Shown here piece by piece: positions 5,352-61,605 of a DNA stretch of 64,000 bases. Both the position numbers and the translations under genes were made by a program. Positions within the stretch are counted from its first letter, which is position 1, and each line of letters begins with the position of its first letter. Where the stretch lies: positions 1 to 64,000 of the forward strand of contig NZ_JAMXFD010000014.1 of NCBI RefSeq assembly GCF_025370875.1, given 5' to 3'. The notes beneath the pieces were generated by a model, which saw only the letters and a list, made by a program, of their open reading frames with translations, did not search any database and was not told the DNA's origin. This stretch comes from Laspinema palackyanum D2c. Its GTDB lineage: Bacteria > Cyanobacteriota > Cyanobacteriia > Cyanobacteriales > Laspinemataceae.

Positions 5352-5409
5352 TCAGCCCGCGCAGGCGGGCTTTGTCCGTATAGCCCCAGGCTTGAGCCTG
5401 CGGGTTTTT
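5352..5409. repeat. Interspersed repeat, family A, copy 2
   Basis: Good copy: AGCCCGCGCAGGCGGGCT forms one hairpin. TTTGTCCGTATAGCCCC leads to AGGCTTGAGCCT, a second short palindrome, followed by GCGGGTTTTT. It lies just downstream of the DUF1822 gene and could act as an end-of-transcript hairpin, although it is not a canonical terminator. Confidence 0.8.
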
Positions 5410-7675: not shown

Positions 7676-10600
7676 TCACCCCAATCCGTAACATCCCAAC
7701 GCCCCCCAATGTACCGGATGCTCAAACGGACAACCTTTGTCGTTGGCATACTGTTTAATCAGTCGTTTCGCATCGTAGACGCGGGTGGAGGTCAAGGGAC
7801 GATTAAGGAGTCGATTCTTCTCAGCGTTCAAATGCTCTTCCACGGGCTCTTTATACTGCTGCTTAAACTCCGCCCCTGTCATTTGGCGCATTTTTTGTTG
7901 TGCGGTTTGCAAAGCGCGAACCCGGTTGAACCCTTGTTTCCGTTGTTCGTGATAGAGAATCGATAACAGCGCCGCTGAACAGTCGTAAATTGACCACTGA
8001 CTGGCGATTACACCCCGCGCCCCGGCACAGAGAAATCCGGTACTCAAGGCGACGGGTTCATCAATGGCACTATCCGGCAGAAATAGCCCCGTTTCGCAAC
8101 AGGAGAGGAACACTTCCTCTAATTGCGGGAAACGCCAACCGGGAGAAAACAGTTGGCTGACGCTGATGGTGCCGTCGCTGAGGTATAATCCCGACTCCTG
8201 AGAATTGTCAAAGCGACTTTGGGCATGGTGACTGCTTACCAGGCAGTTGATGTTTTCCAGTAATTTCCGGTAGTTTTGGCGGGTAGCTGCGGCACCGATG
8301 AGGCGGCGTTGGGGGTCAATTTTGAACAGTTCCGCGACTTTTAACCCCTCGAAACCGCTGAATGGCAGGTCATCGTTGGCGTTTTCTGCGGTGCCATAAT
8401 CGGTACTGGAGACCTGACTCCGATGGTGACAGAAGCCGAGAACTTGCAGACTGGGGGCGTATCGGATCAGGAATTTGTCGCCGAGATAACCCTCACCCCC
8501 GGCCCCTTTCCCAGTGGGCGAAGAGAGATGGATGGGTAACGCCACGAAGGGGATTTGATGTAGAAAGAGATGGGGAACGATTACTAATTCCTCCATGTCT
8601 TGCAGGTGTTCGGTGATCAGGCGGTTGAGTTCCAGGCGGTGGGCAATTTCCGCCAGGGTGTCCGGCATTTGTTTCCGCCACTGGGTTTTGTCGCTGAGAT
8701 AGGGCATCGCCCAAGTTTCTCCTAACCACCGTTGTAGGGTTTTTTTGCCCTGTCCTTTGCAGGTGAAACGACGGGGTTGGGACTCTCCCGAACGCAGGAT
8801 GAAAATATGGGTATCGTCGTCGGTGGTATAAAAGTTGAGAATTGCGGTTTTTTCCGATAGCAGGGGTTGAAAGTCCGAGAGTTTCGGGGGTTGAACTTGC
8901 CGCAGTTTGGCAACCACTTCATCAACGCTGGAAAGTTGGTCGAGGATGCCTTGTTTTTGGCGTTCGATTTCGGCAATTTCAGCGGAGACGGTGGTGGCGG
9001 CGCGGAGTTGGCGGGTTTTGAGTCCGTCTTCTTTCGTTTCCCCGGAGTCGTCTTTAAATTCGTTGCGTTTTTGGGCGATTTGGTCATCGAGGCGATCGAG
9101 TTGTTGTAGCCACTGCTGCACCTGGGGGGGAATATTGCCGTCAGCGTAGAGGTCAGCGGTTGCCATCAAGTCTACCAGGCGTTTCGCCCTCACCCGTTCG
9201 ACAATTTCCAGGGCGGTGGGGATGTCGTCGAGGTTGATGGCGGCTTGGATGGCATTTTCATAAACATAAATCGACTCCCGGACAATCTGCTGGCGACGGT
9301 CTTCACTCAAGGCAAAACGGCGAGATTGTTCAATGGCTTCAATGGCAGTCTGATACTGCTTTAAGGCTTGTTGCCAATGCCCTTGATTAAATTCCAAGTT
9401 AGCCCAATTGCGAGCGGTTTGTAGACAATCTAAGGGGGCGGTGTCGGGCTTCCTGACGGTGAGGGCATTTTCGTAGCATTGAATCGCCCGTTGCAGGTTG
9501 GCGGCGCGATCGCCTGTGGGCAGGTCAGAGTAGGCATTCCCCAGGTTGTTTTGGGTCGTCGCCCAATCTAAGGGGGCGGTGTCTGTTTTCCAGACGGTGA
9601 AGGCATTTTCGTAGCATTGAATCGCCCGTTGCAGGTTAGCGGCGAGATCGCCCGTGGGGAGGTCAGAGTAGGCAGTCCCCAGGTTGTTTTGGGTCGTCGC
9701 CCAATCTAAGGGGGCGGTGTCCGGCTTCCTGACGGTGAGGGCATTTTCGTAGCATTGAATCGCCCGTTGCAGGTTAGCGGCGAGATCGCCGGTGGGCAGG
9801 TTAGAGTAGGCAGCACCCAGGTTGTTTTGGGTCATCGCCCAATCTGAGGGGGTGGTCTCGGGCTTCCACACCTTGAGGGCATCTTCGTAGTATTGAATCG
9901 CCCGTTGCAGGTTGGCGGCGCGATCGCCCGTGGACAGGTATAAGTAGGCAGAACCCAGGTTGTTTTGGGTCATCGCCCAATCTGAGGGGGCGGTGTCCGG
10001 CTTCCACACCTTGAGGGCGCTTTGGTAGCATTTGATAGCCTGTTGCAGGTTAACGGCGCGATCGCCCGTGGGCAGGTATAAGTAGGCATTACCCAGGTTG
10101 TTTTGGGTCATCGCCCAATAATCTGAGGGGGCGGTGTCCGGCTTCCTGACGGTGAGGACGCTTTGGTAGCATTTGATAGCCTGTTGCAGGTTGACGGCGC
10201 GATCGCCCGTGGGCAGGCATAAGTAGGCATTACCCAGGTTGTTTTGGGTCCTCGCCCAATCTAAGGGGGCGGTGTCCGGCTTCCAGACGGTGAGGGCGCT
10301 TTGGTAGCAGTCGATAGCCTGTTGCAGGTTGGCGGCGAGATCGCCCGTGGGCAGGTCAGAGTAGGCAGTCCCCAGGTTGTTTTGGGTCATCGCCCATTCT
10401 AAGGGGGCAGTGTCGGGCTTCCAGACGGTGAGGGCGCTTTGGTAGCAGTCGATAGCCTGTTGCAGGTTGGAGGCGAGATCGCCCGTGGGGAGGTTTTTGT
10501 AGGCATTCCCCAGGTTGTTTTGGGTCATCGCCCAATCTAGGGGGGCGGTGTCGGACTTCCAGACCTTGAGGGCGCTTTGGTAGCAATCGATGGCTTGTTG

Positions 10601-11956
10601 CAGGTTAGCGGCGAGATCGCCCGTGGGCAGGTCAGAGTAGGCAGTCCCCAGGTTGTTTTGGGTCATCGCCCATTCTAAGGGGGCAGTGTCGGGCTTCCTG
10701 ATGGTGAGGGCGCTTTGGTAGCAGTTGATGGCCTGTTGCAGGTTAGCGGCGAGATCGCCCGTGGGGAGGTTTTTGTAGGCATTCCCCAGGTTGTTTTGGA
10801 TCATCGCCCAATCTAGGGGGGCAGTGTCGGACTTGCAGACCTTGAGGGCGCTTTGGTAGCAGTCGATAGCTTGTTGCAGATTGTCGGCGCGATCGCCCGT
10901 GGGGAGGGATAAGTAGGCAGAACCCAGGTTGTTTTGGGTCATCGCCCAATCTAGGGGGGCGGTGTCGGACTTCCAGACCTTGAGGGCGCTTTGGTAGCAA
11001 TCGATGGCCTGTTGCAGGTTAGCGGCGCGATCGCCCGTGGGGAGGTTTTTGTAGGCATTCCCCAGGTTGTTTTGGGTCATCGCCCATTCTAAGGGGGCAG
11101 TGTCGGGCTTCCTTATGGTGAGGGTCCTTTCGTAGCAGTCGATGGCCTGTTGCAGGTTGGCGGCGCGATCGCCCGTGGGCAGGTTAGAGTAGGCTAAACC
11201 CAGGTTGTTTTGGGTTTGCGCCCACTTGTCCGGGAGGCGTTCTGGGGGTCGTGCGTCCAGTACCAACCAGTAGAGTTGAATGGCAATAGCTACATTCTGT
11301 TCTCGGCGACCTCGGGGATAGCTATCAAGACGAATAGCGATGTTTTCAATCAGTGCCACGACGGCTGCTTCTAACTCCTGATTTCCTGTGGTGCGGAATT
11401 TTTGAAGAAAGGTTCTAGCTGCATCAGGTAATTGAGGGTCAAGTCTGCGACCCCGTTGATCCAATTCCTGATAAACCGCTTCAGCACATCCCTTGATTTC
11501 GGCTTGCAGCAAGGCTTCAAATAATGCTGTTCTCTCCGGGCTATCTTTCCCCATCTCCAATATTCGCCGCAGTTGTTCTCGTCCCTGTTGGGCAATTTGC
11601 AGGGTTCCCTCCAGTGTCTGCCAAAACTGCTTTTCGGTCAGTTCGCCATCTTCTAACGGTAAATCCGCCTGCAACCGCACTTCCCCATCATCCGGGTCTC
11701 GTTGCCACCTTGCCAGTTTATATTGCCAACCCAGATGCAGCAAGGTTTGCAAAGCCGCCTCATAGTGGGGATGGTCGGTACTAATCGTCAACAATTGGGG
11801 CAGAAATATCTTGACAAATTCCCCGTTTTCTGATGCTTCTACAACTACGGTTAAACCCTCCACCTCCAAAATCAGGTATTGCTGTTCCCAGTCCGGTTGA
11901 TAGTGCCAGTTCCGATCATCTAAAAAGCCACAAATTTGTTCAAATAATGGTTTCAT
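7676..11956 (-). CDS. YbjN-like/TPR/CHAT caspase-like protein
   Basis: Large protein of 1426 residues. An N-terminal domain (about 1-130; FLDDRNWHYQPDWEQQYLIL, DPDDGEVRLQADLPL, LTEKQFWQTL) looks YbjN/type III chaperone-like. Next come a helical spacer and 13 TPR-type units of 46 residues (unit 8 has 47), each with QNNLGxAY and LPTGD(R/L)AANLQ. A degenerate TPR, a charged coiled-coil region (QWLQQLDRLDDQIAQKRNEF) and a C-terminal CHAT domain follow. In CHAT the likely catalytic pair is His1243/1244 (SSHHAQSRFD) and Cys1287 (LSCCETG). CHAT proteins are caspase-like cysteine peptidases, and TPRs usually sense partners. A repeat-derived insertion (SSPTGKGAGGEG) sits inside CHAT. A paralogue of the N-terminal domain is encoded 95 bp upstream. 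Target and trigger are unknown. Confidence 0.88.
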   Translation of the reverse strand: MKPLFEQICGFLDDRNWHYQPDWEQQYLILEVEGLTVVVEASENGEFVKIFLPQLLTISTDHPHYEAALQTLLHLGWQYKLARWQRDPDDGEVRLQADLPLEDGELTEKQFWQTLEGTLQIAQQGREQLRRILEMGKDSPERTALFEALLQAEIKGCAEAVYQELDQRGRRLDPQLPDAARTFLQKFRTTGNQELEAAVVALIENIAIRLDSYPRGRREQNVAIAIQLYWLVLDARPPERLPDKWAQTQNNLGLAYSNLPTGDRAANLQQAIDCYERTLTIRKPDTAPLEWAMTQNNLGNAYKNLPTGDRAANLQQAIDCYQSALKVWKSDTAPLDWAMTQNNLGSAYLSLPTGDRADNLQQAIDCYQSALKVCKSDTAPLDWAMIQNNLGNAYKNLPTGDLAANLQQAINCYQSALTIRKPDTAPLEWAMTQNNLGTAYSDLPTGDLAANLQQAIDCYQSALKVWKSDTAPLDWAMTQNNLGNAYKNLPTGDLASNLQQAIDCYQSALTVWKPDTAPLEWAMTQNNLGTAYSDLPTGDLAANLQQAIDCYQSALTVWKPDTAPLDWARTQNNLGNAYLCLPTGDRAVNLQQAIKCYQSVLTVRKPDTAPSDYWAMTQNNLGNAYLYLPTGDRAVNLQQAIKCYQSALKVWKPDTAPSDWAMTQNNLGSAYLYLSTGDRAANLQRAIQYYEDALKVWKPETTPSDWAMTQNNLGAAYSNLPTGDLAANLQRAIQCYENALTVRKPDTAPLDWATTQNNLGTAYSDLPTGDLAANLQRAIQCYENAFTVWKTDTAPLDWATTQNNLGNAYSDLPTGDRAANLQRAIQCYENALTVRKPDTAPLDCLQTARNWANLEFNQGHWQQALKQYQTAIEAIEQSRRFALSEDRRQQIVRESIYVYENAIQAAINLDDIPTALEIVERVRAKRLVDLMATADLYADGNIPPQVQQWLQQLDRLDDQIAQKRNEFKDDSGETKEDGLKTRQLRAATTVSAEIAEIERQKQGILDQLSSVDEVVAKLRQVQPPKLSDFQPLLSEKTAILNFYTTDDDTHIFILRSGESQPRRFTCKGQGKKTLQRWLGETWAMPYLSDKTQWRKQMPDTLAEIAHRLELNRLITEHLQDMEELVIVPHLFLHQIPFVALPIHLSSPTGKGAGGEGYLGDKFLIRYAPSLQVLGFCHHRSQVSSTDYGTAENANDDLPFSGFEGLKVAELFKIDPQRRLIGAAATRQNYRKLLENINCLVSSHHAQSRFDNSQESGLYLSDGTISVSQLFSPGWRFPQLEEVFLSCCETGLFLPDSAIDEPVALSTGFLCAGARGVIASQWSIYDCSAALLSILYHEQRKQGFNRVRALQTAQQKMRQMTGAEFKQQYKEPVEEHLNAEKNRLLNRPLTSTRVYDAKRLIKQYANDKGCPFEHPVHWGALGCYGLG
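8490..8530. repeat. Family D repeat piece inside the CHAT coding region
   Basis: CCTCACCCCCGGCCCCTTTC followed by CCAGTGGGCGAAGAGAG resembles the common cyanobacterial intergenic repeat CCTCACCCTAACCCTCTCCC…GGGAGAGG. In the minus frame it encodes SPTGKGAGGEG between FVALPI and YLGDKFLIRYAP. A purely intergenic relative lies at 38945-38980. Confidence 0.5.
9430..11226 (-). repeat. Tandem 138-bp repeat array encoding 13 TPR units
   Basis: Thirteen direct copies of a 138 bp unit with about 85-95% apparent identity between neighbours. Unit 8 is 141 bp because of one extra codon (ATA in the top-strand reading CCAATAATCTG). Seven units spell GGCGATCGCGCC (GDRA), which contains the HIP1 octamer; six spell GGCGATCTCGCC (GDLA), which does not. 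The array boundaries are approximate. Confidence 0.85.
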
Positions 11957-12723: not shown

Positions 12724-12842
12724 AAAAACCCCCGCAGGCTAAAGCCTGGGGCTATACGGACGAAGCCCGCCTGCGCGGGCTAAGAAAGGGCTATACGGAT
12801 GAAGCCCGTGGTTCGACGGTGTTCACCAGAGCCCTGCGCGGC
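12724..12842. repeat. Interspersed repeat, family A, copy 4 (double)
   Basis: AAAACCCCCGCAGGCTAAAG starts a full element ending GCCTGCGCGGGCTAA. A second partial copy follows at once (GGGCTATACGGATGAAGCCCG, TTCACCAGAGCCCTGCGCGG). Any reading frame through it (WGYTDEARLRGL) is a property of the repeat, not a protein. The rest of the 350 bp gap holds no gene. Confidence 0.8.
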
Positions 12843-16644: not shown

Positions 16645-16787
16645 GATAGATACAACTCTAAGGGTAGGGGGTCTAGGCGATCGGGATTTGTGGGTAATAC
16701 AGTTGCAGAACAATTGAGGGCGGTTTCTAGGATACAGAAAGCACCCGGGATGGTCAGTTCCGTTAACCCTGAGATCTTGCACCAGTG

Positions 16788-16934
16788 GCAACAACCGGCG
16801 GGGGTTAAAACGATTGGCGGCCTAATACCTAAAGTCGTCTAAAGACGACTGCAAGTCTTATCCCGTGGTATTTTCAGTCGGTTTCAACCGACTTGATTCT
16901 GTTAGGCGGGGGATTTATCCCCCGCCGGTTGTTG
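16788..16934. repeat. Nested-hairpin element, family B, copy 1
   Basis: Outer arms GCAACAACCGGCGGGGG and CCCCCGCCGGTTGTTG flank two inner hairpins, AGTCGTCTAAAGACGACT and AGTCGGTTTCAACCGACT, joined by TCTTATCCCGTGGTATTTTC. This copy has lost part of its left G/C hairpin (GGTTAAAACGATTGGCGGCC). It lies between rlmN and the cyclase gene. Confidence 0.85.
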
Positions 16935-17046
16935 AGAATGGTGCAAGATGTCAGTTAACCCCTACTTTAGTTTAGCAACTCTGGGGAGGGGAAATCGCCG
17001 CCACAATTTATCCCAGCTAGAGGGTCCAGACTGGATGAATATTGTC

Positions 17047-26377: not shown

Positions 26378-27763
26378 GTGCAAACATCTTTCAATAGTTC
26401 GATGGTCATGGGCGGACGTGACCAAGAAACCTCCGGGTTTGCCTGGTGGTCTGGAAACGCCCGTCTGATCAACTTATCCGGGAAACTGCTGGGCGCTCAC
26501 GTTGCTCACGCTGGATTGATTGTCTTCTGGGCTGGAGCGATGACTTTATTTGAAGTCGGTCACTTCATTCCTGAAAAGCCGATGTATGAGCAAGGCTTAA
26601 TCCTCCTGCCTCACCTGGGTACCCTGGGCTGGGGTGTAGGTCCGGGTGGAGAAGTCATCGATACTTTCCCCTACTTTGTTATTGGTGTTCTGCACCTGAT
26701 TTCTTCTGCCGTTCTCGGTCTCGGTGGTATCTACCACGCCGTTCGCGGTCCAGAAACCTTAGAAGAATACTCTTCTTTCTTCGGCTATGACTGGCGCGAC
26801 AAAAACAAGATGACCACCATCTTAGGCTTCCACCTCATCGTTCTGGGATTGGGTGCCTTATTGCTGGTGCTCAAAGCCATGTTCTTTGGTGGCGTGTATG
26901 ACACCTGGGCACCCGGTGGCGGTGACGTTCGCGTAATCACGAACCCGACCCTGAACCCCGCTGTGATCTTCGGTTATCTAACCCGCTCTCCCTTCGGTGG
27001 CGAAGGCTGGTTGATCGGTGTCGATAACATGGAAGACATTATCGGTGGGCACATTTGGGTTGGCTTCACCTGCATTATTGGCGGTGTCTATCACATCCTC
27101 ACCAAGCCTTTTGGTTGGGTGCGTCGCGCCTTCATCTGGTCTGGAGAAGCTTATCTGTCCTACAGCTTAGGCGCTCTGTCTCTGATGGGCTTTGTGGCTG
27201 CTTCCTTCGTTTGGTTTAACAACACGGCTTATCCCAGCGAATTTTACGGCCCCACCAACGCCGAATCTTCTCAGGCTCAAGCCTTCACCTTCTTGGTTCG
27301 TGACCAACGCTTAGGTGCCAGCATCGGTACCGCTCAAGGCCCCACGGGTCTAGGTAAATATCTGATGCGCTCTCCGACTGGGGAAATCATCTTCGGTGGT
27401 GAAACCATGCGCTTCTGGGATTTCCGTGGCCCCTGGTTGGAACCCCTCCGTGGACCGAATGGCTTGGATCTGCGTAAGCTGAAAAATGACATTCAACCCT
27501 GGCAAATCCGTCGGGCTGCTGAGTACATGACTCACGCTCCTAACGGTTCCATCAACTCTGTGGGTGGGATTATCACTGAAGCCAACGGCTTCAACTATGT
27601 GAACCCCCGCGCTTGGTTGGCTGGTTCTCACTTCATCTTGGCCTTCTTCTTCTTAGTGGGTCACCTCTGGCACGCTGGCCGCGCTCGCGCCGCTGCTGCT
27701 GGATTTGAACGCGGTATTGACCGTGAAGATGAGCCAGTGTTGGCTATGACTGAACTCGATTAA
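26378..27763 (+). CDS. psbC: Photosystem II CP43 chlorophyll protein
   Basis: CP43 inner antenna subunit, 461 residues, six membrane helices binding chlorophyll a and helping to ligate the Mn cluster. The GTG start gives [20 protein letters not shown] and is preceded by AAAAGAGGTT, a good ribosome site. Signature stretches are [38 protein letters not shown] and [20 protein letters not shown]. The lumenal loop [20 protein letters not shown] contains the Glu and Arg near the oxygen-evolving cluster, and the end reads [19 protein letters not shown]. Expressed with psbD; a strong terminator follows at 27814. Confidence 0.99.
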
Positions 27764-27862: not shown

Positions 27863-27942
27863 AAAACCCGCAGGCTGAAGCCTGGGGCTATACGGACGAA
27901 GCCCGTGGTTCGACGGGCTCACCAGAGCCCTGCGCGGGCTAA
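27863..27942. repeat. Interspersed repeat, family A, copy 5
   Basis: AAAACCCGCAGGCTGAAGCC, TGGGGCTATACGGACGAAGC, CCGTGGTTCGACGGGCTCAC, CAGAGCCCTGCGCGGGCTAA: a longer variant with an inserted GTGGTTCGACGGGCTCACCAGAG module, also seen in part at 12800-12842. Confidence 0.85.
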
Positions 27943-31413: not shown

Positions 31414-32091
31414 TTAACTATCTCCCTTGTCATTGGAAAGAACGCTGCTTTTTTTGCGGGTACTAATTAAGGCGATCGGGGTTACCACGAGAATTACTGC
31501 GATCGCAATACCGACTAACCAACCTATCGGAAATCCGCTTTCAGTTGCGGGGGTTGCTAGGGGTTGTTGCGCCGTTTCCAGGGGTTGAGGGGCCGGATCC
31601 TCAATCAAGGGGGTACTCTGGGTGACTACGGGTTCTGGAGTGGCAGTCGCCTCGGGAGTGGCGGCAGTCTCTGGGGTTTGGGTTTTGCGAGATTCCGCAT
31701 AGAGAGACAAACTCCCTTCGGTGACAAGATTTTCCCCCACGGATAATCCCTCTATGACTTCTATCAGTTCCCCTTGAGTTGCGCCGGTGGTAACGGGAAC
31801 AGGTTCATAGAAGTTTTGATATTGGACAAAAACGAGTGGCTGATCCTCTGCATTCACTAAGGCGGTGATGGGAACCAGGATGGAGGCGCTACCATCGGCA
31901 GCCGGGGCGATCGGGGTGACGACGATGCCTAACATGGGGTCAGTTTCCGGGTTCACTTCTACCCGTTCAATCCCGCCCGTGGCTTGGAATTCATCCCCAT
32001 GTCCCACATGGGATAAAGCCAGTTTGGGAAGGGATAAAACAACCGTTGTGATCAGGACAGTCCGAATTAAAGATTGATGTGAGTAACCCAT
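31414..32091 (-). CDS. Short membrane-fusion-like adaptor for the RND pump
   Basis: Protein of 225 residues with a signal peptide (LIRTVLITTVVLSLPKLALS), then HVGHGDEF, a possible metal-binding start. A segment resembling the membrane-proximal domain of RND adaptors follows (SILVPITALVNAEDQPLVFV, EPVPVTTGATQGELIEVIEG, LSVGENLVTEGSLSLYAESR). A Pro/Thr/Glu-rich linker then leads to a C-terminal membrane helix (GWLVGIAIAVILVVTPIALI) with a basic end. Usual adaptors of about 400-500 residues also have lipoyl, beta-barrel and helical hairpin parts, which are absent here. It starts the operon with the pump, 8 bp apart. Either another adaptor completes the system or this is a reduced type. Confidence 0.75.
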   Translation of the reverse strand: MGYSHQSLIRTVLITTVVLSLPKLALSHVGHGDEFQATGGIERVEVNPETDPMLGIVVTPIAPAADGSASILVPITALVNAEDQPLVFVQYQNFYEPVPVTTGATQGELIEVIEGLSVGENLVTEGSLSLYAESRKTQTPETAATPEATATPEPVVTQSTPLIEDPAPQPLETAQQPLATPATESGFPIGWLVGIAIAVILVVTPIALISTRKKSSVLSNDKGDS

Positions 32092-32167: not shown

Positions 32168-32310
32168 GCAACAACCGGCGGGGGTTCAAACCCCCGCCTA
32201 ACAGCTAAAGTCGGTTGAAACCGACTGAAAACACCACGGGATAAGACTGGCAGTCGTCTTTAGACGACTTTAGCTATGAGGCGGGGGTTTGAACCCCCGC
32301 CGGTTGTTGC
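32168..32310. repeat. Nested-hairpin element, family B, copy 2 (best copy)
   Basis: A 143 bp element. Each outer arm is itself a hairpin (GGCGGGGG-TTCAAA-CCCCCGCC on the left, GGCGGGGGTTTGAACCCC on the right). The ends GCAACAACC and GGTTGTTGC pair with each other. Inside are AGTCGGTTGAAACCGACT and AGTCGTCTTTAGACGACT, separated by GAAAACACCACGGGATAAGA. It lies in the divergent promoter region between adaptor and response regulator. Confidence 0.92.
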
Positions 32311-32353: not shown

Positions 32354-33046
32354 ATGAGAATTTTGCTGGTGGAAGATGAGACGGATTTAGGACAGGCGAT
32401 TAAGCAGGTGTTAGTGAATGAAAAGTATGTTGTAGATTGGGTTCAGGATGGGGTACAGGCTTGGGATTGTCTGGAAAGTCAGTGGACGGATTATACAGTG
32501 GCGATCGTGGATTGGTTGGTGCCGAAGTTATCTGGGTTAAAGTTATGTCAGCGATTGAGATTGCATCAAAATCCATTACCTGTGTTGATGTTGACGGCGT
32601 TGGGACAGCCGGAAAATCGGGTGGCGGGACTGGATGCTGGGGCGGATGATTATTTGGTGAAACCGTTTGTGATGGAAGAATTACTGGCGCGTTTGCGTGC
32701 ATTACAGCGGCGATCGCCTCAACTCCAACCCCAAACCCTGACAGTGGGTGGATTTACCTTAGATTATGGCAATAATGTCCTCAGTTTCGGGATGACTCAA
32801 CCGCCTCAATTGATTCCGTTAACGGTGAAAGAATTTCAACTGTTTGCCTATTTGATGCAAAATTGCGATCGCATTATTTCTGGGAGTAAGATTCGGTATC
32901 AACTCTGGGATTTGGATGAGGAACCGATTAGTAATGTGGTAGCGGCACAAATGCGATTATTGCGCCGAAAGTTAGCTAATTATAACTGTCCTTGTCCCAT
33001 TGAAACCATTCCGGGTCAAGGATATCGATTTAATACCTCTCGATGA
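32354..33046 (+). CDS. OmpR-type response regulator (RppA/NrsR-like)
   Basis: Transcription factor of 230 residues. The receiver domain (1-118) has the acidic pair ED (VEDETD), phospho-acceptor Asp in VAIVDWLVPKLSG, Thr in VLMLTALGQ and Lys in DDYLVKPFVMEELLARLRAL. The C-terminal winged helix carries LTVKEFQLFAYLMQNCDRII and SNVVAAQMRLLRRKLANYN. It resembles RppA/NrsR of Synechocystis, a regulator associated with nickel response and photosynthesis redox control. The next gene is the kinase, 12 bp away. Divergent placement from the efflux pump suggests that it controls the pump. Confidence 0.92.
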   Translation: MRILLVEDETDLGQAIKQVLVNEKYVVDWVQDGVQAWDCLESQWTDYTVAIVDWLVPKLSGLKLCQRLRLHQNPLPVLMLTALGQPENRVAGLDAGADDYLVKPFVMEELLARLRALQRRSPQLQPQTLTVGGFTLDYGNNVLSFGMTQPPQLIPLTVKEFQLFAYLMQNCDRIISGSKIRYQLWDLDEEPISNVVAAQMRLLRRKLANYNCPCPIETIPGQGYRFNTSR

Positions 33047-43291: not shown

Positions 43292-43369
43292 GCAGGCGGG
43301 CTAAAATCAAGAAGCCCGCACCCTAGAAGGGTGGGGCTACACGAACGAAGCCCGCCTGTGCGGGCTAAA
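43292..43369. repeat. Interspersed repeat, family A, copy 6
   Basis: GCAGGCGGGCTAAAATCAAG, AAGCCCGCACCCTAGAAGGG, TGGGGCTACACGAACGAAGC and CCGCCTGTGCGGGCTAAAG. The ends GCGGGCTAA and CGGGCTAAA repeat in direct orientation, showing a composite copy. Confidence 0.75.
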
Positions 43370-43413
43370 GAGAAAAATTTTAAAAACCAAATTGCGTATC
43401 AGTCATTTCTAAT

Positions 43414-43589
43414 GTTGGTAGTTATCAGTCGTTTCTAATGTTCGTAGTAACGACTTCAGTCGTTTCTCATGTTCGTAGTAACGACTTCAGTCGTTTCTAA
43501 TGTTCGTAGTAACGACTTCAGTCGTTTCTCATGTTCGTAGTAACGACTTCAGTCGTTTCTCATGTTCGTAGTAACGACTTCAGTCGTTA
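43414..43589. repeat. Tandem array of 31-bp family C units
   Basis: Five consecutive 31 bp units starting at 43440, 43471, 43502, 43533 and 43564, each GTTCGTAGTAACGACTTCAG plus TCGTTTCT(A/C)AT, preceded by one degenerate unit at 43414. Each contains the hairpin AACGACTTCAGTCGTT. There are no spacers. Confidence 0.92.
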
Positions 43590-43637
43590 TCCCCCATTCA
43601 TAGTCAATCCCTAACTCTCAAAAGTCCTTAATCCCGG

Positions 43638-49048: not shown

Positions 49049-51913
49049 TTAACTCTGGAGATCTCTAAGATCCCACAAGCGCACTACACCATCACGACCT
49101 GCGGAGGCGAGATATTTGCGATCGGCACTGAAGGCTACGCTCTTCACCCAGCCGGTATGTCCAGAGAGTTGGCGCAGTTCCCTTCCCGTAGCCGTATCCC
49201 ATAACTGCACAGTATTATCCGAACTTCCAGAAGCGAGGAATTTGCCATCGGGACTAAAGGCGACGCTATTCACCTCGCTTGTATGCCCCTTCAGTTGGCG
49301 CAGTCCCCTTCCCGTAGCCGTATCCCATAACTGTACGGTATTCCCACAACCCCCAGAAGCTAGGAATTTGCCATCGGGACTAAAGGCCAAGCTATTTTTA
49401 ATCAAGCTAATATCTCCATAGAATTGGCGTAGTACCCTTCCCGTAGCCGTATCCCACAGCCGCCCGGTATAATCCCCACTCCCAGAAGCGAGGAATTTGC
49501 CATCAACACTGAAGGCTACGCTTTCCACCGAGTAGGTATCTCCACAGAGTTGGCGCAGTTCCCTTCCCGTAGCCGTATCCCACAGCCGCACGGTCTTATC
49601 CGAACTTCCAGAAGCGAGGAATTTGCCATCAAGACTGAAGGCTACACTATTCACCCAGCCGGTATGTCCAGAGAGTTGGCGCAGTTTCCTTCCCGTAGCC
49701 GTATCCCATAACTGCACAGTATTATCCGAACTCCCAGAAGCCAGGAATTTGCCATCAGGACTGAAGGCCACGCTATTCACCCGGGCCTTATGTCCAGAGA
49801 GTTGGAGCAGTTCCCTTCCCGTAGCTGTATCCCACAAACGCACGGTATAATCCCCATTCCCAGAAGCGAGGAATTTGCCATCAAGACTGAAGGCTACGCT
49901 ATTCACCCAGCCGGTATGTCCAGAGAGTTGGCGCAGGTCCCTTCCCGTAGCCGGATCCCACAGCCGCACGGTATTATCCCCACTCCCAGAAACCAGGAAT
50001 TTGCTATCGGGACTGAAGGCCACGCTATTCACCCGGCTGCTATGTCCGTAGAGTTGGCGCAGGTCCCTTCCCGTAGCCGAATCCCACAGCCGCACGGTAT
50101 AATTTCCACTCCCAGAAGCGAGGAATTTGCCATCGAGACTGAAGGCCACGCTATATACTGAGGAGGTATGTCCACAGAGTTGATGCAGTTCCCTTCCCGT
50201 AGCCGGATCCCACAGCCGCACAGTATTATCCGAACTCCCAGAAGCGAGGAATTTGGCATCGGGACTAAAAGCAACGCTATATACCGAGCAGGTATGTCCA
50301 CAGAGTTGAAGCAGTTCTCTTCCCGTAGCCGGATCCCACAGCCGCACGGTTTTATCATGACTCCCAGAAGCGAGGAATTTACCATCGGGACTGAAGGCCA
50401 CGCTATACACCAAGCGGGTATGTCCAGAGAGTTGAAGCAGTTCTCTTCCCATAGCCGTATCCCAGAGCCGCACAGTATTATCCGAACTCCCAGAAGCGAG
50501 GAATTTGGCATCGGGACTGAAGGCCACGCTTTTCACTTTATGAGTATCTCCCTTAAGTTGACGTAGGAATTGCCCCGTCGTTAAATCCCAGAGGTAAATA
50601 GCTTGTTCCCCCCCTAAAGCTAACAGTTTTCCGTCCCGACTCACGGCACTCGAATTACCATAGGAGTCTATAACAGTAGTAGGGCAGTCGATTTCCCAGA
50701 GTGTCTCCCCACTACTCAGATTAAACAATGCCCCGCCACCCCCGGCACAGACAACCGCCAATTCCTGATTCAGCAGGATTACATTTTTAATTGTTCCACG
50801 CCCAAAACGCCGCACCATGCCCTGTGCTTGCAGCTCGGGCAAGATAAAATAGCCGCGTAGATCTACTGCGCCTTTGCCTGTACCTGATGTACTTGTTGGT
50901 TGGGGCTTTAAAACTGAGGGTGAAAGCTGACTTTTGGGGAGTGGGTGTTTTGTAGCAGAAATATTTGGAGAGCTATTTACCTGAGATGCCCCTGTTTTCC
51001 ACCACTCATTGATATGGTTAGGTCGCTGATTTTTCTGTAGCGGTAAGGCAGAAGCGACTAAACTCTGCCAGGGTTCCTCTAATTGGGGTTCCCAGGGTTC
51101 TCCGATGAGGCGACTCAAAGCAGGGGGCGGTAGGGTCCCGGTAAGCATTTGATGTAAGAGCATCCCCAGTTCAAAAATATCGCTTTCTGGCCCGATCGCC
51201 TGGTTGCCAATCAGTTCCGGTGGGGCATAATCCGGTGTAAATGCTCGGGTACTCCGGGTGGGCCCGATCGCGGCGCTTTCTTGTTTAGCTGCCCCAAAAT
51301 CGATTAAGACGATTCGCCCTTCTGGGGTTAGGAGAATATTGTCCGGTTTGAGGTCGAGATGATAGACTCCAGATTGATGAGTTACCACTAAGGCACTCAC
51401 TAAAGCGGTCATGATTTCCCTAACTCGTTGCGGGTCTAATTTTTTCCCGGGCTGCTCGTCCAACTCTTGCCCTAGGGTTTTTCCCGATAACAGTTCCATC
51501 ACCAAATAGGCGGTGTTTCTTTCTTGAAATAAGTCTTGCACTCGCACTAAACTGGGATGATTCAGTTTGGCTAAAATCTGCCCTTCTCGCAAAAATCGCG
51601 TTAACCAACGCTGATACATTTCTGTTTTGTTTTGGGGGACGGTTAATCCCCCATTGTTGCTGTGGCGATGGGCGAGTTCTTGGGGATAGTATTCTTTGAT
51701 GGCGACGGGTTGTTCTAAGCCAATATGATGCGCGAGATAGGTGATGCCAAATCCACCGCGTCCTAGGGCATATTCGATTTCGTAGGTGTCGGCTTTTAAG
51801 CGGGTCTTTTCCGGGAGGAGGTTTTGCTGGAGTGCGGGGAAGTGAGCGCCGCATTTGGGGCAATATTGATGGGTTGACGGGATGCCGTCGGCATGACAGT
51901 TTAAACAACGCAT
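49049..51913 (-). CDS. Serine/threonine protein kinase with WD40 propellers
   Basis: 954 residues. I start at MRCLNCHADGIPSTHQ (51913); a GTG 18 bp upstream would add six residues. A zinc ribbon (CLNC…CPKC) opens it, as in many cyanobacterial kinases. The kinase domain has the glycine loop ALGRGGFGITYLAHH, Lys in VAIKEYYPQE, catalytic loop HLDLKPDNILL (HLD rather than HRD), DFG in LIDFGAAKQ and APE-like DYAPPELIG. A linker of about 70 residues follows, then about 14 WD40 units of 42 residues (VNSVAFSPDGKFLASGSSDN, TVRLWDTATGRELRQL). Fourteen units fit two seven-bladed propellers. The kinase phosphorylates unknown partners; the missing HRD Arg implies no activation-loop phosphorylation switch. 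Confidence 0.93.
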   Translation of the reverse strand: MRCLNCHADGIPSTHQYCPKCGAHFPALQQNLLPEKTRLKADTYEIEYALGRGGFGITYLAHHIGLEQPVAIKEYYPQELAHRHSNNGGLTVPQNKTEMYQRWLTRFLREGQILAKLNHPSLVRVQDLFQERNTAYLVMELLSGKTLGQELDEQPGKKLDPQRVREIMTALVSALVVTHQSGVYHLDLKPDNILLTPEGRIVLIDFGAAKQESAAIGPTRSTRAFTPDYAPPELIGNQAIGPESDIFELGMLLHQMLTGTLPPPALSRLIGEPWEPQLEEPWQSLVASALPLQKNQRPNHINEWWKTGASQVNSSPNISATKHPLPKSQLSPSVLKPQPTSTSGTGKGAVDLRGYFILPELQAQGMVRRFGRGTIKNVILLNQELAVVCAGGGGALFNLSSGETLWEIDCPTTVIDSYGNSSAVSRDGKLLALGGEQAIYLWDLTTGQFLRQLKGDTHKVKSVAFSPDAKFLASGSSDNTVRLWDTAMGRELLQLSGHTRLVYSVAFSPDGKFLASGSHDKTVRLWDPATGRELLQLCGHTCSVYSVAFSPDAKFLASGSSDNTVRLWDPATGRELHQLCGHTSSVYSVAFSLDGKFLASGSGNYTVRLWDSATGRDLRQLYGHSSRVNSVAFSPDSKFLVSGSGDNTVRLWDPATGRDLRQLSGHTGWVNSVAFSLDGKFLASGNGDYTVRLWDTATGRELLQLSGHKARVNSVAFSPDGKFLASGSSDNTVQLWDTATGRKLRQLSGHTGWVNSVAFSLDGKFLASGSSDKTVRLWDTATGRELRQLCGDTYSVESVAFSVDGKFLASGSGDYTGRLWDTATGRVLRQFYGDISLIKNSLAFSPDGKFLASGGCGNTVQLWDTATGRGLRQLKGHTSEVNSVAFSPDGKFLASGSSDNTVQLWDTATGRELRQLSGHTGWVKSVAFSADRKYLASAGRDGVVRLWDLRDLQS
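49050..50560 (-). repeat. Tandem 126-bp repeats encoding WD40 units
   Basis: About twelve strongly similar direct copies of a 126 bp unit; unit 9 is a few codons longer (GDISLIKNSLAFS). DNA similarity between units is high, pointing to recent expansion or conversion. Confidence 0.8.
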
Positions 51914-52076
51914 GAGCCTATATGTCCACACCTACTCCGATTTTAATAATTTATCATGAAAGGGTGAGGGGTTTAATAAATTTTTGTAACGGTTTGGGGC
52001 TAGGGGTGGCAGGGTGCGAGCGATCGCCTCTTAATACTCTTAATACAATTTCTACAGTTATTCGCGCACATTCTTG

Positions 52077-52639: not shown

Positions 52640-52817
52640 CGGGTTTTTTTATGATTTTACTCTTTTTATGGTAGGGCAAAATTGACCCCAACTGGTGAGG
52701 AATGTTAAGGGAAGCAGTAGAGTTTGATTTGGATGGGGGATTAACGACTGAAGTCGTTACTAAGAACGAAGAAGAACGACTGATCCTAAGTCCAGCGCTT
52801 AAAAGTTTAGTTTCTCT

Positions 52818-52873
52818 TTAGCCCGCGTAGGCGGGCTTTGTTCCTGTAGCCCCAGCGTTTACGGTGTGGGCTT
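52818..52873. repeat. Interspersed repeat, family A, copy 7
   Basis: TTTAGCCCGCGTAGGCGGGC TTTGTTCCTGTAGCCCCAGC GTTTACGGTGTGGGCTTCTC; the second hairpin is degenerate. A family C half-hairpin (AACGACTGAAGTCGTTACT) lies 75 bp to the left at 52744. Confidence 0.7.
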
Positions 52874-54053: not shown

Positions 54054-54239
54054 CAACAACCGGCGGGGGATAAATCCCCCGCCTAACAGCTCAAGTCGGT
54101 TGAAACCGACTGAAAATCTTGCCTGGTGGTGTTTTCAGGCTTTTTTCACCCCATAGAAAGTCCGATCGCCTGATCTATTTAGTCGGTTTTAACCGACTTT
54201 AGCTATGAGGCGGGGGATTTATCCCCCGCCGGTTGTTGC
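54054..54239. repeat. Nested-hairpin element, family B, copy 3
   Basis: 186 bp. Ends CAACAACCGGCGGGGGA… and …CCCCCGCCGGTTGTTG; arms GGCGGGGGATTTATCCCC; inner AGTCGGTTGAAACCGACT and AGTCGGTTTTAACCGACT. A longer spacer (GGCTTTTTTCACCCC and following) enlarges the centre. Confidence 0.88.
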
Positions 54240-55300: not shown

Positions 55301-55304
55301 TCAA

Positions 55305-55616
55305 GACAACCGGCGGGGGTTAAAACCCCCGCCTAATAGCTAAAGTCGGTTAAAACCGACTGCAAACACCATCGGATAAGATTTTTAGTTGTCGGTTGGA
55401 ACCCAAATTTTGTATGAGTGGCAAGGCCCGGATTAAAACTGACTCAAAATACCACGGGATAATGATGAGCAGTCGGTTTTAACCGACTTTAGCTATTAGC
55501 TGGGGGTTTTAACCCCCAGCGGTTGTCTGACTCAAAACACCACGGGATAATGATGAGCAGTCGGTTTTAACCGACTTTAGCTATTAGCTGGGGGTTTTAA
55601 CCCCCAGCGGTTGTTG
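55305..55616. repeat. Composite family B cluster with an 88-bp direct duplication
   Basis: A family B left half (GACAACCGGCGGGGGTTAAA…) is followed by two right halves in tandem. The unit CTGACTCAAAA(T/C)ACCACG… to CCCCCAGCGGTTGT starts at 55439 and again at 55527, 88 bp apart with almost no differences. In these units the outer stem is GCTGGGGG/CCCCCAGC instead of GGCGGGGG/CCCCCGCC. Confidence 0.88.
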
Positions 55617-56212: not shown

Positions 56213-56287
56213 AGACGCCTGAAGGCGTCACTACGAACAAAAACAGAAAACTTGCGCCTCTTGTTCGTAGTAACGCCTTCAGGCGTT
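56213..56287. repeat. Palindromic element, family C, cluster 2
   Basis: Two hairpins in inverted orientation: GACGCCTGAAGGCGTC and AACGCCTTCAGGCGTT, joined by ACTACGAACAAAAACAG and CTTGTTCGTAGT. The stem bases differ from the 43440 array (GCC/GGC for GAC/GTC) with pairing kept. Confidence 0.85.
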
Positions 56288-56304
56288 ATCTCCTCTTCGC
56301 CAAT

Positions 56305-61135: not shown

Positions 61136-61393
61136 GCAACAGGGGGCGGATGGTTCCGTAAGACAACCGGCGGGGGTTAAAACCCCCGCCTAACAGCTAA
61201 AGTCGGTTGAAACCGACTGAAAACACCACTGTATCAGGCTTGCAGACAACCGGCGGGTTGCGACAACCGGCGGGGGTTAAAACCCCCGCCTAACAGCTAA
61301 AGTCGGTTGAAACCGACTGAAAACACCACTGTATCAGGCTTGCAGTCGTCTTTAGACGACTTGAGCTATTAGGCGGGGGTTTTAACCCCCGCC

Positions 61394-61421
61394 GTAGAGG
61401 CGCTTCCAAAAGCGCCTCTAC
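61394..61421. repeat. Short palindrome, family F, copy 4
   Basis: GTAGAGGCGCTTCCAAAAGC GCCTCTAC; stem GTAGAGGCGCTT/AAGCGCCTCTAC is almost complete (loop CCAA). Confidence 0.8.
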
Positions 61422-61605
61422 AGGCTAAAAGTTCAAACCCCTATAGGTGTTGAGAATGGTGCAAGATGTCAGTTAAAACCGACTAAAAACACCATCCGAT
61501 AAGACGAGCAGTCGTCTTTAGACGACTAGAACTGTTAGGCCGCCCATCGTTTTAAACCCCCCCGGTCTTGCTTATGGGGTAACGTTTTTAGTTGGTTTTT
61601 AACTG

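Follow-up and report, generated by a model that had tools for sequence, protein, structure and literature searches.

Among the described systems closest to the locus considered here are the repetitive extragenic palindromic (REP) doublets known as REPINs, which in Pseudomonas fluorescens SBW25 and E. coli are short palindromic units arranged as inverted doublets and dispersed between genes, the low-copy Y1 gene of the corresponding REP-associated tyrosine transposase (RAYT) being flanked by its own repeats and several such systems being found per genome. For REPINs, both a stable long hairpin and a 'clover' fold have been discussed (Bertels and Rainey, 2011; PMC3116915). In Quentin et al. (2018; PMC6006769), the Y1 enzymes of subclass 1.2 are presented as low-copy cyanobacterial proteins of ~150 aa (~148) with the motifs NH/DH-I-H, WQ and Y---Q--HH, generally without secondary structures of the IS200 type and with the table entry 'REP: no'; the automatic search in that work targeted GT[AG]G-tagged hairpins within 1 kb. 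In this context, a 64,000-nt stretch of the cyanobacterium Laspinema palackyanum D2c (contig NZ_JAMXFD010000014.1, positions 1 to 64,000, hereafter the window) was analysed for a repeated four-hairpin element, family B, represented by the copy at 32168-32310. This element is probably a REP/REPIN-like, non-autonomous mobile DNA of the orphan Y1 subclass 1.2, some copies of which have been captured into a miniature inverted-repeat transposable element (MITE). The reading builds on the association of the repeat unit with the gene, the covariation of its stems, the intergenic dispersal of its copies (position checked within the window), their polymorphism among sister species and insertions carrying terminal inverted repeats (TIRs).

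The element is made of two 55-nt modules, each of them a half-element, inverted around a short centre. In the orientation of the model, hairpin A spans 22 nt with 10 bp and hairpin B mostly 18 nt with 8 bp, and the linker between them is T[AC]A[TC]AGCNN; CC precedes hairpin A, and GAA or similar follows hairpin B. In the intergenic copy at 32168, hairpin A (32177-32198), linker, hairpin B, centre, hairpin B', linker and hairpin A' follow one another, with divergent open reading frames (ORFs) on either side, 31414-32091(-) and 32354-33046(+). The likeness to REPINs extends to the short palindromic units, the inverted doublets, the intergenic dispersal, the low-copy Y1 gene flanked by its own repeats and the presence of several systems in one genome. 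Nevertheless, the module has no GT[AG]G (or CGTC) tag, having instead CC on the 5' side of hairpin A and TMAYAGC on its 3' side; each half comprises two hairpins joined by a conserved linker; and the Y---Q--HH of the transposase is that of subclass 1.2, where class 2 TnpA-REP proteins have Y..NP. The system thus works like REPIN/RAYT, yet it is not a member by two criteria, the missing GT[AG]G tag and a transposase outside the RAYT classes.

The Y1 transposase gene and its flanking modules

Three Y1_Tnp genes were found in the genome, each adjoining a different repeat. Two are assigned by NCBIfam to REP_Tyr_transpos and sit in arrays of two other repeats, while the third, at the end of contig 8, codes for 153 aa, is assigned to IS200 and lies between two family-B modules, at distances of 71 and 106 nt. 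The first-pass annotation of the DNA had seen no transposase, which is right for the window and wrong for the genome, the 153-aa TnpA gene lying outside the window; the RAYT/TnpA-REP-like gene that it proposed to look for in the same genome was found in the form of these three Y1 genes. The 153-aa protein has the HUH motif as NHIH, a WQ motif and YVQNQKIHH, which is the Y---Q--HH signature, and its closest solved structure by sequence is that of the ISHp608 TnpA (PDB). By motifs and length it fits subclass 1.2 of Quentin et al. (2018), sharing with it also the low copy number and the cyanobacterial host; what differs is the specific double hairpin which flanks the clade. That no such module has been recorded for subclass 1.2 may be because the module is without the GT[AG]G tag.

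Relatives of this TnpA in other genomes (53-85% identity) also have flanking modules, in which the linker is the same and the stems differ widely. In a phylogenetic tree restricted to proteins of at least 110 aa, 35 module-flanked TnpAs and the truncated L087 formed one clade (clade A, support 99/97), from which 12 IS200-type (subclass 1.1) rows were separated with 100/99 support; for five second genes, which stood outside the tree, the assignment to the clade is by 56-67% identity. The modules at eight genes (L035-L042) served to build a covariance model, R1, whose matches adjoin 40 of the 41 clade-A genes examined, a set that leaves aside some gene fragments listed in homology searches. These 40 are spread across many cyanobacterial families, and 32 of them had not been used in building the model. 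They comprise 31/31 members of the main set (L034-L046, L064-L081), 4/4 named loci (two Hormoscilla, two Brasilonema) and 5/5 second genes, the sole exception being L087, which is truncated and has neither the Y motif nor a module. Beside other Y1 genes, R1 gave no match at 19 loci (2 RAYT, 4 clade B, 13 IS200-type), nor at any of the 30 searched out of 34 fetched non-cyanobacterial relatives; of six clade-B loci searched along with the main set, three gave weak matches only, with E about 0.001 to 0.007, and the others gave no match. Over 35 loci, and leaving out matches below about 30 bits and three repeated L160 matches, the median distance from the gene to its nearest module is 77 nt on the 5' side and 17.5 nt on the 3' side, where about 0.09 modules per 3 kb would be expected by chance at the hairpin density of the D2c genome.

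Modules are found on both sides of the gene in 23 of these 35 loci, an arrangement which could also be that of a present or recent IS200-like insertion sequence moving as a unit, with the four-hairpin elements as its internal-deletion derivatives. In fact, gene pairs in four genomes (G054, G100, G120, G341) align together with their neighbouring modules at 82-88% identity over 530-750 bp, and in G100 (pair L217/L218) and G120 one edge of the alignment falls no more than 1 nt from the outer end of hairpin A. In the two-gene genomes (L216-L220 with L037, L066, L067, L079), the similarity stops at the outer foot of hairpin A in two cases, and an ancestral IS-like element may have ended at such edges. 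Now and then, therefore, the gene has been copied together with its modules, in keeping with an action of the Y1 enzyme on the module, but also with an insertion sequence; a stationary gene with mobile modules, which was also considered, is undercut by the same diverged pairs. An insertion sequence is nonetheless improbable. The pairs seen are all diverged, with no near-identical set of the kind found in active insertion sequences, and the pair in G341, some 3 kb apart, may be a local duplication. Most genomes list a single full-length clade gene, as does D2c, only G054 listing two among 13 clade-bearing genomes, and modules far outnumber genes. With regard to IS200/IS605 elements such as IS608, the protein family and the subterminal hairpins are shared and a few genomes hold diverged gene-plus-module copies, whereas here the repeats far exceed the gene and the loci read contain no near-identical gene copies. 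Both explanations have the core claim in common, namely that the enzyme acts on the module.

The co-occurrence of gene and module was also assessed across 386 genomes of the phylum, in counts which ignore the kinship among genomes. A TnpA at E<=1e-25 was present in 33, and R1 matched in 33/33 of these compared with 42/353 of the others; as ten of the 33 carry only a clade-B or truncated gene, a stricter count was made, giving R1 in 23/23 genomes with a clade member and in 52/363 others. Among 16 relatives assembled in at most 6 contigs, R1 counts (which saturate, 14 or 97 candidates being scored per genome) were 97, 97, 96, 19 and 8 with the gene present, the last of these genes being degenerate, and 4, 0, 0, 0, 3, 0, 0, 0, 0, 4 and 1 with the gene absent.

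Copies, folding and covariation of the element

In the 7.03-Mb genome (81 contigs), at least 41 near-complete copies were aligned over at least 128 of the 159 query bases, a lower bound given that 40 of 171 candidates were scored; 30 of the places were fetched and aligned. The hairpin pattern GGCGGGGGWTNNAWCCCCCGCC occurs 215 times, compared with 0 for the reversed control pattern, and the module model matched 97 of the 97 scored candidates, so that the repeat is by no means confined to the window; a lack of further copies in the genome, which the first-pass annotation had named as fatal to its proposal, was thus not found. In the window itself, the module model gave 21 matches at E<=0.01, 12 of them with at least 39 bits (start positions in Table 1). 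All the copies listed in that annotation, at 16788, 32168, 54054, 55305, 61162 and 61440, are present in the sequence; it had overlooked that 61162 and 61262 are tandem left halves and that the right half near 55.5 kb is doubled (55468, 55556).

Table 1. Family-B copies and target-site duplications in the window, with the 12 module matches of at least 39 bits.
Feature	Position	Strand	Basis
Four-hairpin element without TIRs	32168..32310	+	Modules 32175-32229 (+), 32249-32303 (-)
Complete 184-bp copy, 14-bp TIRs TGAGATCTTGCACC / GGTGCAAGATGTCA around four-hairpin core, left arm hybrid	16770..16953	-	Model matches (starts 16795, 16873) and sister-species comparison
Left target-site duplication, 8 bp, GTTAACCC	16762..16769	.	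Empty alleles in sister species
Right target-site duplication, 8 bp, GTTAACCC	16954..16961	.	Empty alleles in sister species
Copy with longer, different centre	54054..54239	+	Modules 54060-54114 (+), 54178-54232 (-)
Composite copy	55304..55616	+	Left module 55310-55364 (+), right modules 55468-55522 (-), 55556-55610 (-), GCTGGGGG/CCCCCAGC hairpin
Left half alone	61161..61245	+	Module 61167-61221
Four-hairpin element, 91% identity to 32168	61254..61394	+	Modules 61267-61321 (+), 61341-61395 (-)
Decayed copy, one TIR (61458-61471, GGTGCAAGATGTCA), then GTTAAAACCGACT	61458..61566	+	Model match and TIR search

Comparison with sister species revealed that the 32168 site is empty in G007 and G002, and that the 54054 copy is common to D2c and G004, the site holding other sequence in G005 and G007. 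In both comparisons (32168 and 54-55 kb), the same intergenic sites carry different repeats among the sister species. No DNA match to the 16.8-kb copy was found in a plasmid collection, and the TnpA relatives in plasmids and phages were all below 60% identity.

As a single strand, 32168-32310 folds with -62.4 kcal/mol, compared with -20.6 +/- 2.6 in shuffles (z -16), and this energy together with the pattern counts excludes a chance origin of the structure. The best fold of the whole copy is one long hairpin, arm on arm. Therefore, of the four nested hairpins initially described, the inverted halves with their hairpins stand, and the folding of the 32168 copy as four separate hairpins gives way to the long one; both the long hairpin and the clover discussed for REPINs are open to this element too. 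The claim that the arms are themselves hairpins does not apply to the left arm of the 16.8-kb copy, which is a hybrid, GGCGGGGG..CGATTGGCGGCC, and cannot form a perfect hairpin. Such hybrid arms occur in 10 of 29 parsed copies (of the 30 fetched, L027 was left out), and in 10/10 it is the inner half that is foreign, the search pattern having covered this arrangement only. The hybrids, at L008, L013, L016, L017, L020, L022-L026 and window 16795-16822, join the GGCGGGGG half to half of a second hairpin type, GGCCGCCAATCG/CGATTGGCGGCC, and it looks as if the outer halves must remain complementary across the element. Furthermore, the left and right hairpin-A loops are identical within 16 of the 29 elements, compared with 5.6 in shuffles, which speaks for pairing between the arms or for conversion inside an element, or else for palindromic intermediates in the copying; the shuffle leaves shared ancestry of element types in place as an alternative.

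The compensated variation of the stems, first noticed among the copies of the window, proved real across genera, 61 doubly changed cells being counted compared with 18.7 in shuffles, and a lack of covariation, set in the first pass as a refuting result, was thus not found. Stem cells were paired in 97.1%, compared with 82.0% in shuffles and 25-59% in slid controls, a percentage which is inflated because 19 of the 23 rows of the alignment had been preselected for pairing. Of 60 linker matches, 27 were retained as module rows for pairing and non-redundancy; in alignment A2 the L037 and L041 rows were added by hand, and A3 is without the rows having a 17- or 19-nt hairpin B and without one L039 row.

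So stable a fold, and pairing kept under mutation, are also what would be expected of a folded RNA or transcript element, such as a terminator, a stabiliser of mRNA 3' ends or a small RNA. This explanation is highly unlikely: the element has no Rfam match at the gathering threshold, the ORFs around its copies in the window are in some cases divergent (32168, 54054) and in others convergent or tandem, its presence at a given site varies among sister species, and it is tied to a transposase. The first-pass annotation had left a folded RNA and the transposition of a cruciform DNA side by side; the polymorphic copies, the flanking of a Y1 gene and one proven insertion favour DNA, and the Rfam result and the variety of ORF arrangements speak against the RNA. 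A secondary effect of the copies on transcripts is possible.

Terminal inverted repeats and other repeats of the genome

The proven insertion is the 16.8-kb copy, with GTTAACCC-TGAGATCTTGCACC in front of it and GGTGCAAGATGTCA-GTTAACCC behind. The empty site reads GTTAACCCC, present once, in G001, G004 and G005 and CTTAACCCC, present once, in G002 and G007, the site being unreadable in G003 and G006. Read against these five sister species, the copy is thus a clean insertion of 184 bp, which ends in 14-bp inverted repeats and has duplicated 8 bp of its target. Target sites had been proposed for checking from the outset; the duplication was found at this copy, and together with the TIRs it forms a layer which the first pass could not see. 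In G004, the 55.3-kb copy has its hairpin B interrupted by another TIR element, with GTTAAAAC duplicated. In the D2c genome, the TIR TGASATCTTGCACC has 17 + 24 exact ends, compared with 0 for the control pattern, and the 8-mers next to the TIRs mostly fit GWTNNAWC. Identical flanking 8-mers were found in 5 of 19 TIR pairings, some of them overlapping, with at most 3 mismatches per end, 18 coming from D2c and one from G004. When TIRs were sought within 45 nt of either end with up to 3 mismatches, 6 of the 30 fetched copies had them on both sides, 8 on one side and 16, including 32168, on neither. The TIR layer was found in this genus, other genera not having been searched for it.

Y1 enzymes of IS200/IS605 elements are not known to duplicate their target sites. 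The 8-bp duplications, being unlike Y1 action, therefore indicate that these insertions were made by a DDE-type transposase. TIRs and an 8-bp duplication, at the 16.8-kb copy and at others, are features of bacterial MITEs with 8-bp duplications; what differs is that the core resembles a REPIN and is linked with a Y1 enzyme, and that an autonomous partner was not found, no exact TIR pair enclosing a gene-sized insert in the D2c genome (diverged TIRs and other genomes were not searched). Beside the hairpins at L126, L140 and window 61390-61471, the TIR encloses another inner sequence (CCTATAGGGG...GTAGAGGCGCTT...AAGCGCCTCTAC), which means that the TIR element has an alternative cargo. A partial precedent is provided by the GTAG-15 repeats of Anabaena variabilis, also a cyanobacterium, whose REP dimers were reported as insertions in long palindromes (Di Nocera et al., 2013; PMC3733652), so that a REP dimer is nested in another palindromic repeat; these are GTAG-tagged single hairpins, and a target duplication is not described in the accessible part of that paper.

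The same data allow a simpler account, a plain DDE-type MITE in which the hairpins are internal sequence and the Y1 neighbourhood arises from shared intergenic hot spots. The proven insertion at 16.8 kb, the other one in G004, the 41 exact TIR ends compared with none in the control, the different repeats at the same intergenic sites of sister species and the six of eight genus genomes with modules and no gene would all suit it. We consider it improbable, since in other families and orders the module adjoins clade-A genes, at the median distances given above, and not other Y1 genes, and since more than half of the fetched copies, 32168 among them, are without TIRs.

Several other features of the genome stand apart from family B. 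GTAG-tagged TTCGTAGTAACGACTTCAGTCGTT repeats occur in the window at 43394-43619 and 56258-56298 and are also arrayed beside the gene of a 180-aa REP-associated tyrosine transposase (L033), and they look like a separate, ordinary RAYT/REP system; the remaining Y1 gene (L032, 189 aa, RAYT) lies amid arrays of a AAGAAACCGGGTTTCTG repeat, a further REP family of the genome. Another double-hairpin repeat, AGCCCGCGCAGGCGGGCTTTGTCCGTATAGCCCCAGGCTTGAGCCTGCGGG, is found at 5354-5409, 12726-12808, 27867-27905, 43316-43354 and 52811-52852. In G003 and G006, both sister species, a clade-B TnpA of subclass 1.2 (L047, L049) is flanked by this repeat; no gene of that kind is among the three Y1 genes found in D2c. 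L047 and L049 have the double hairpin AGCCCGCGCAGGCGGGCT...GTATAGCC at their sides; when this pattern was sought at 11 loci taken as clade B (including L087, clade A by the tree), the only further hits were one each in L084 and L085, within the gene and unconvincing. At 12759-12782, inside a copy of the AGCCCGCGCAGGCGGGCTTTGTCCGTATAGCCCCAGGCTTGAGCCTGCGGG repeat, Rfam calls CRISPR-DR28 (36.4 bits, cut-off 35), which is probably a false CRISPR call. Two long ORFs, 7676-11956 and 49049-51931, contain 138-bp and 126-bp tandem repeats, multiples of three, and both probably encode repeat proteins. IsrR, the antisense RNA of isiA, lies at 26792-26978 (Rfam RF01419, 166.6 bits).

Proposed movement of the repeat and its possible meaning for subclass 1.2

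In the preferred reading, a REP/REPIN-like DNA served by subclass 1.2, the TnpA would act at the replication fork, where it would bind the single-stranded DNA of hairpin A and possibly also of hairpin B, would read GCTRTKA (the reverse complement of the linker TMAYAGC) beside hairpin A as a guide, and would cut and rejoin the ends, copying or moving the doublet in trans, as has been proposed for RAYTs and REPINs. Movement of the repeat by the Y1 enzyme is inferred here from the sequence comparisons. In this genus, part of the doublets would have become cargo of the MITE, which would have spread them further, the DDE-type enzyme preferring GTTNNAAC-like palindromes, including hairpin B of older copies, and giving rise to nested arrays. 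A more tentative idea, which we hold to be somewhat short of an even chance, is that of a two-engine element, where the same DNA of ~180 bp would be the substrate of the subclass 1.2 Y1 enzyme through its hairpins and of the DDE enzyme through its TIRs; by DDE insertion into hairpin B of older copies, the element would create landing sites for itself and build up nested arrays.

A number of observations weigh against the preferred reading. No Y1-type insertion was caught, the exactly resolved junctions being all of the DDE type. The 32168 junction could not be read against G007 and G002, where the alleles differ by more than the element and the flanks have diverged, and at further TIR-free sites in sister species (three, and one REP-array site) no clean empty allele was found, because the intergenic turnover is too great. 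The tie between gene and module is one of neighbourhood, and the orientation of the modules beside the gene is mixed (18 in and 12 out on the 5' side, 14 and 14 on the 3' side). Moreover, the 52 of 363 genomes in the stricter count have R1 matches and no clade gene, nine of them having only a clade-B gene (six by the tree, three by 40-44% identity) and one a truncated gene. Seven genomes of at most 10 contigs hold at least 11 modules and no TnpA at E<=1e-25, and their modules would have to be relics or be served by a more distant enzyme. Within the genus, modules are found in 8/8 genomes (11 to 100) and the gene only in D2c and in G005, an assembly of 3 contigs, G004 having 100 modules and no TnpA match at E<=0.001; likewise, 12 of 35 draft relatives without an intact clade gene hold at least 26 modules. 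In drafts the absence of the gene may be due to assembly loss, the D2c gene itself being at a contig end.

The literature searched, mostly without subscription papers, gave no earlier account of the double hairpin, and a prior description of some copies is possible; among the matches listed in a literal search for the linker strings in papers, the titles were unrelated. The HUH transposases of subclass 1.2 have been described as lacking both REP and IS features. Should the double hairpin prove to be their substrate, these orphan enzymes would acquire a DNA target that is concrete and can be tested, and the realm of REPs and RAYTs would widen to class-1 transposases without a GTAG tag. In addition, the hybrid of TIRs and 8-bp duplications shows a short repeat captured by a second, unrelated transposition machinery.
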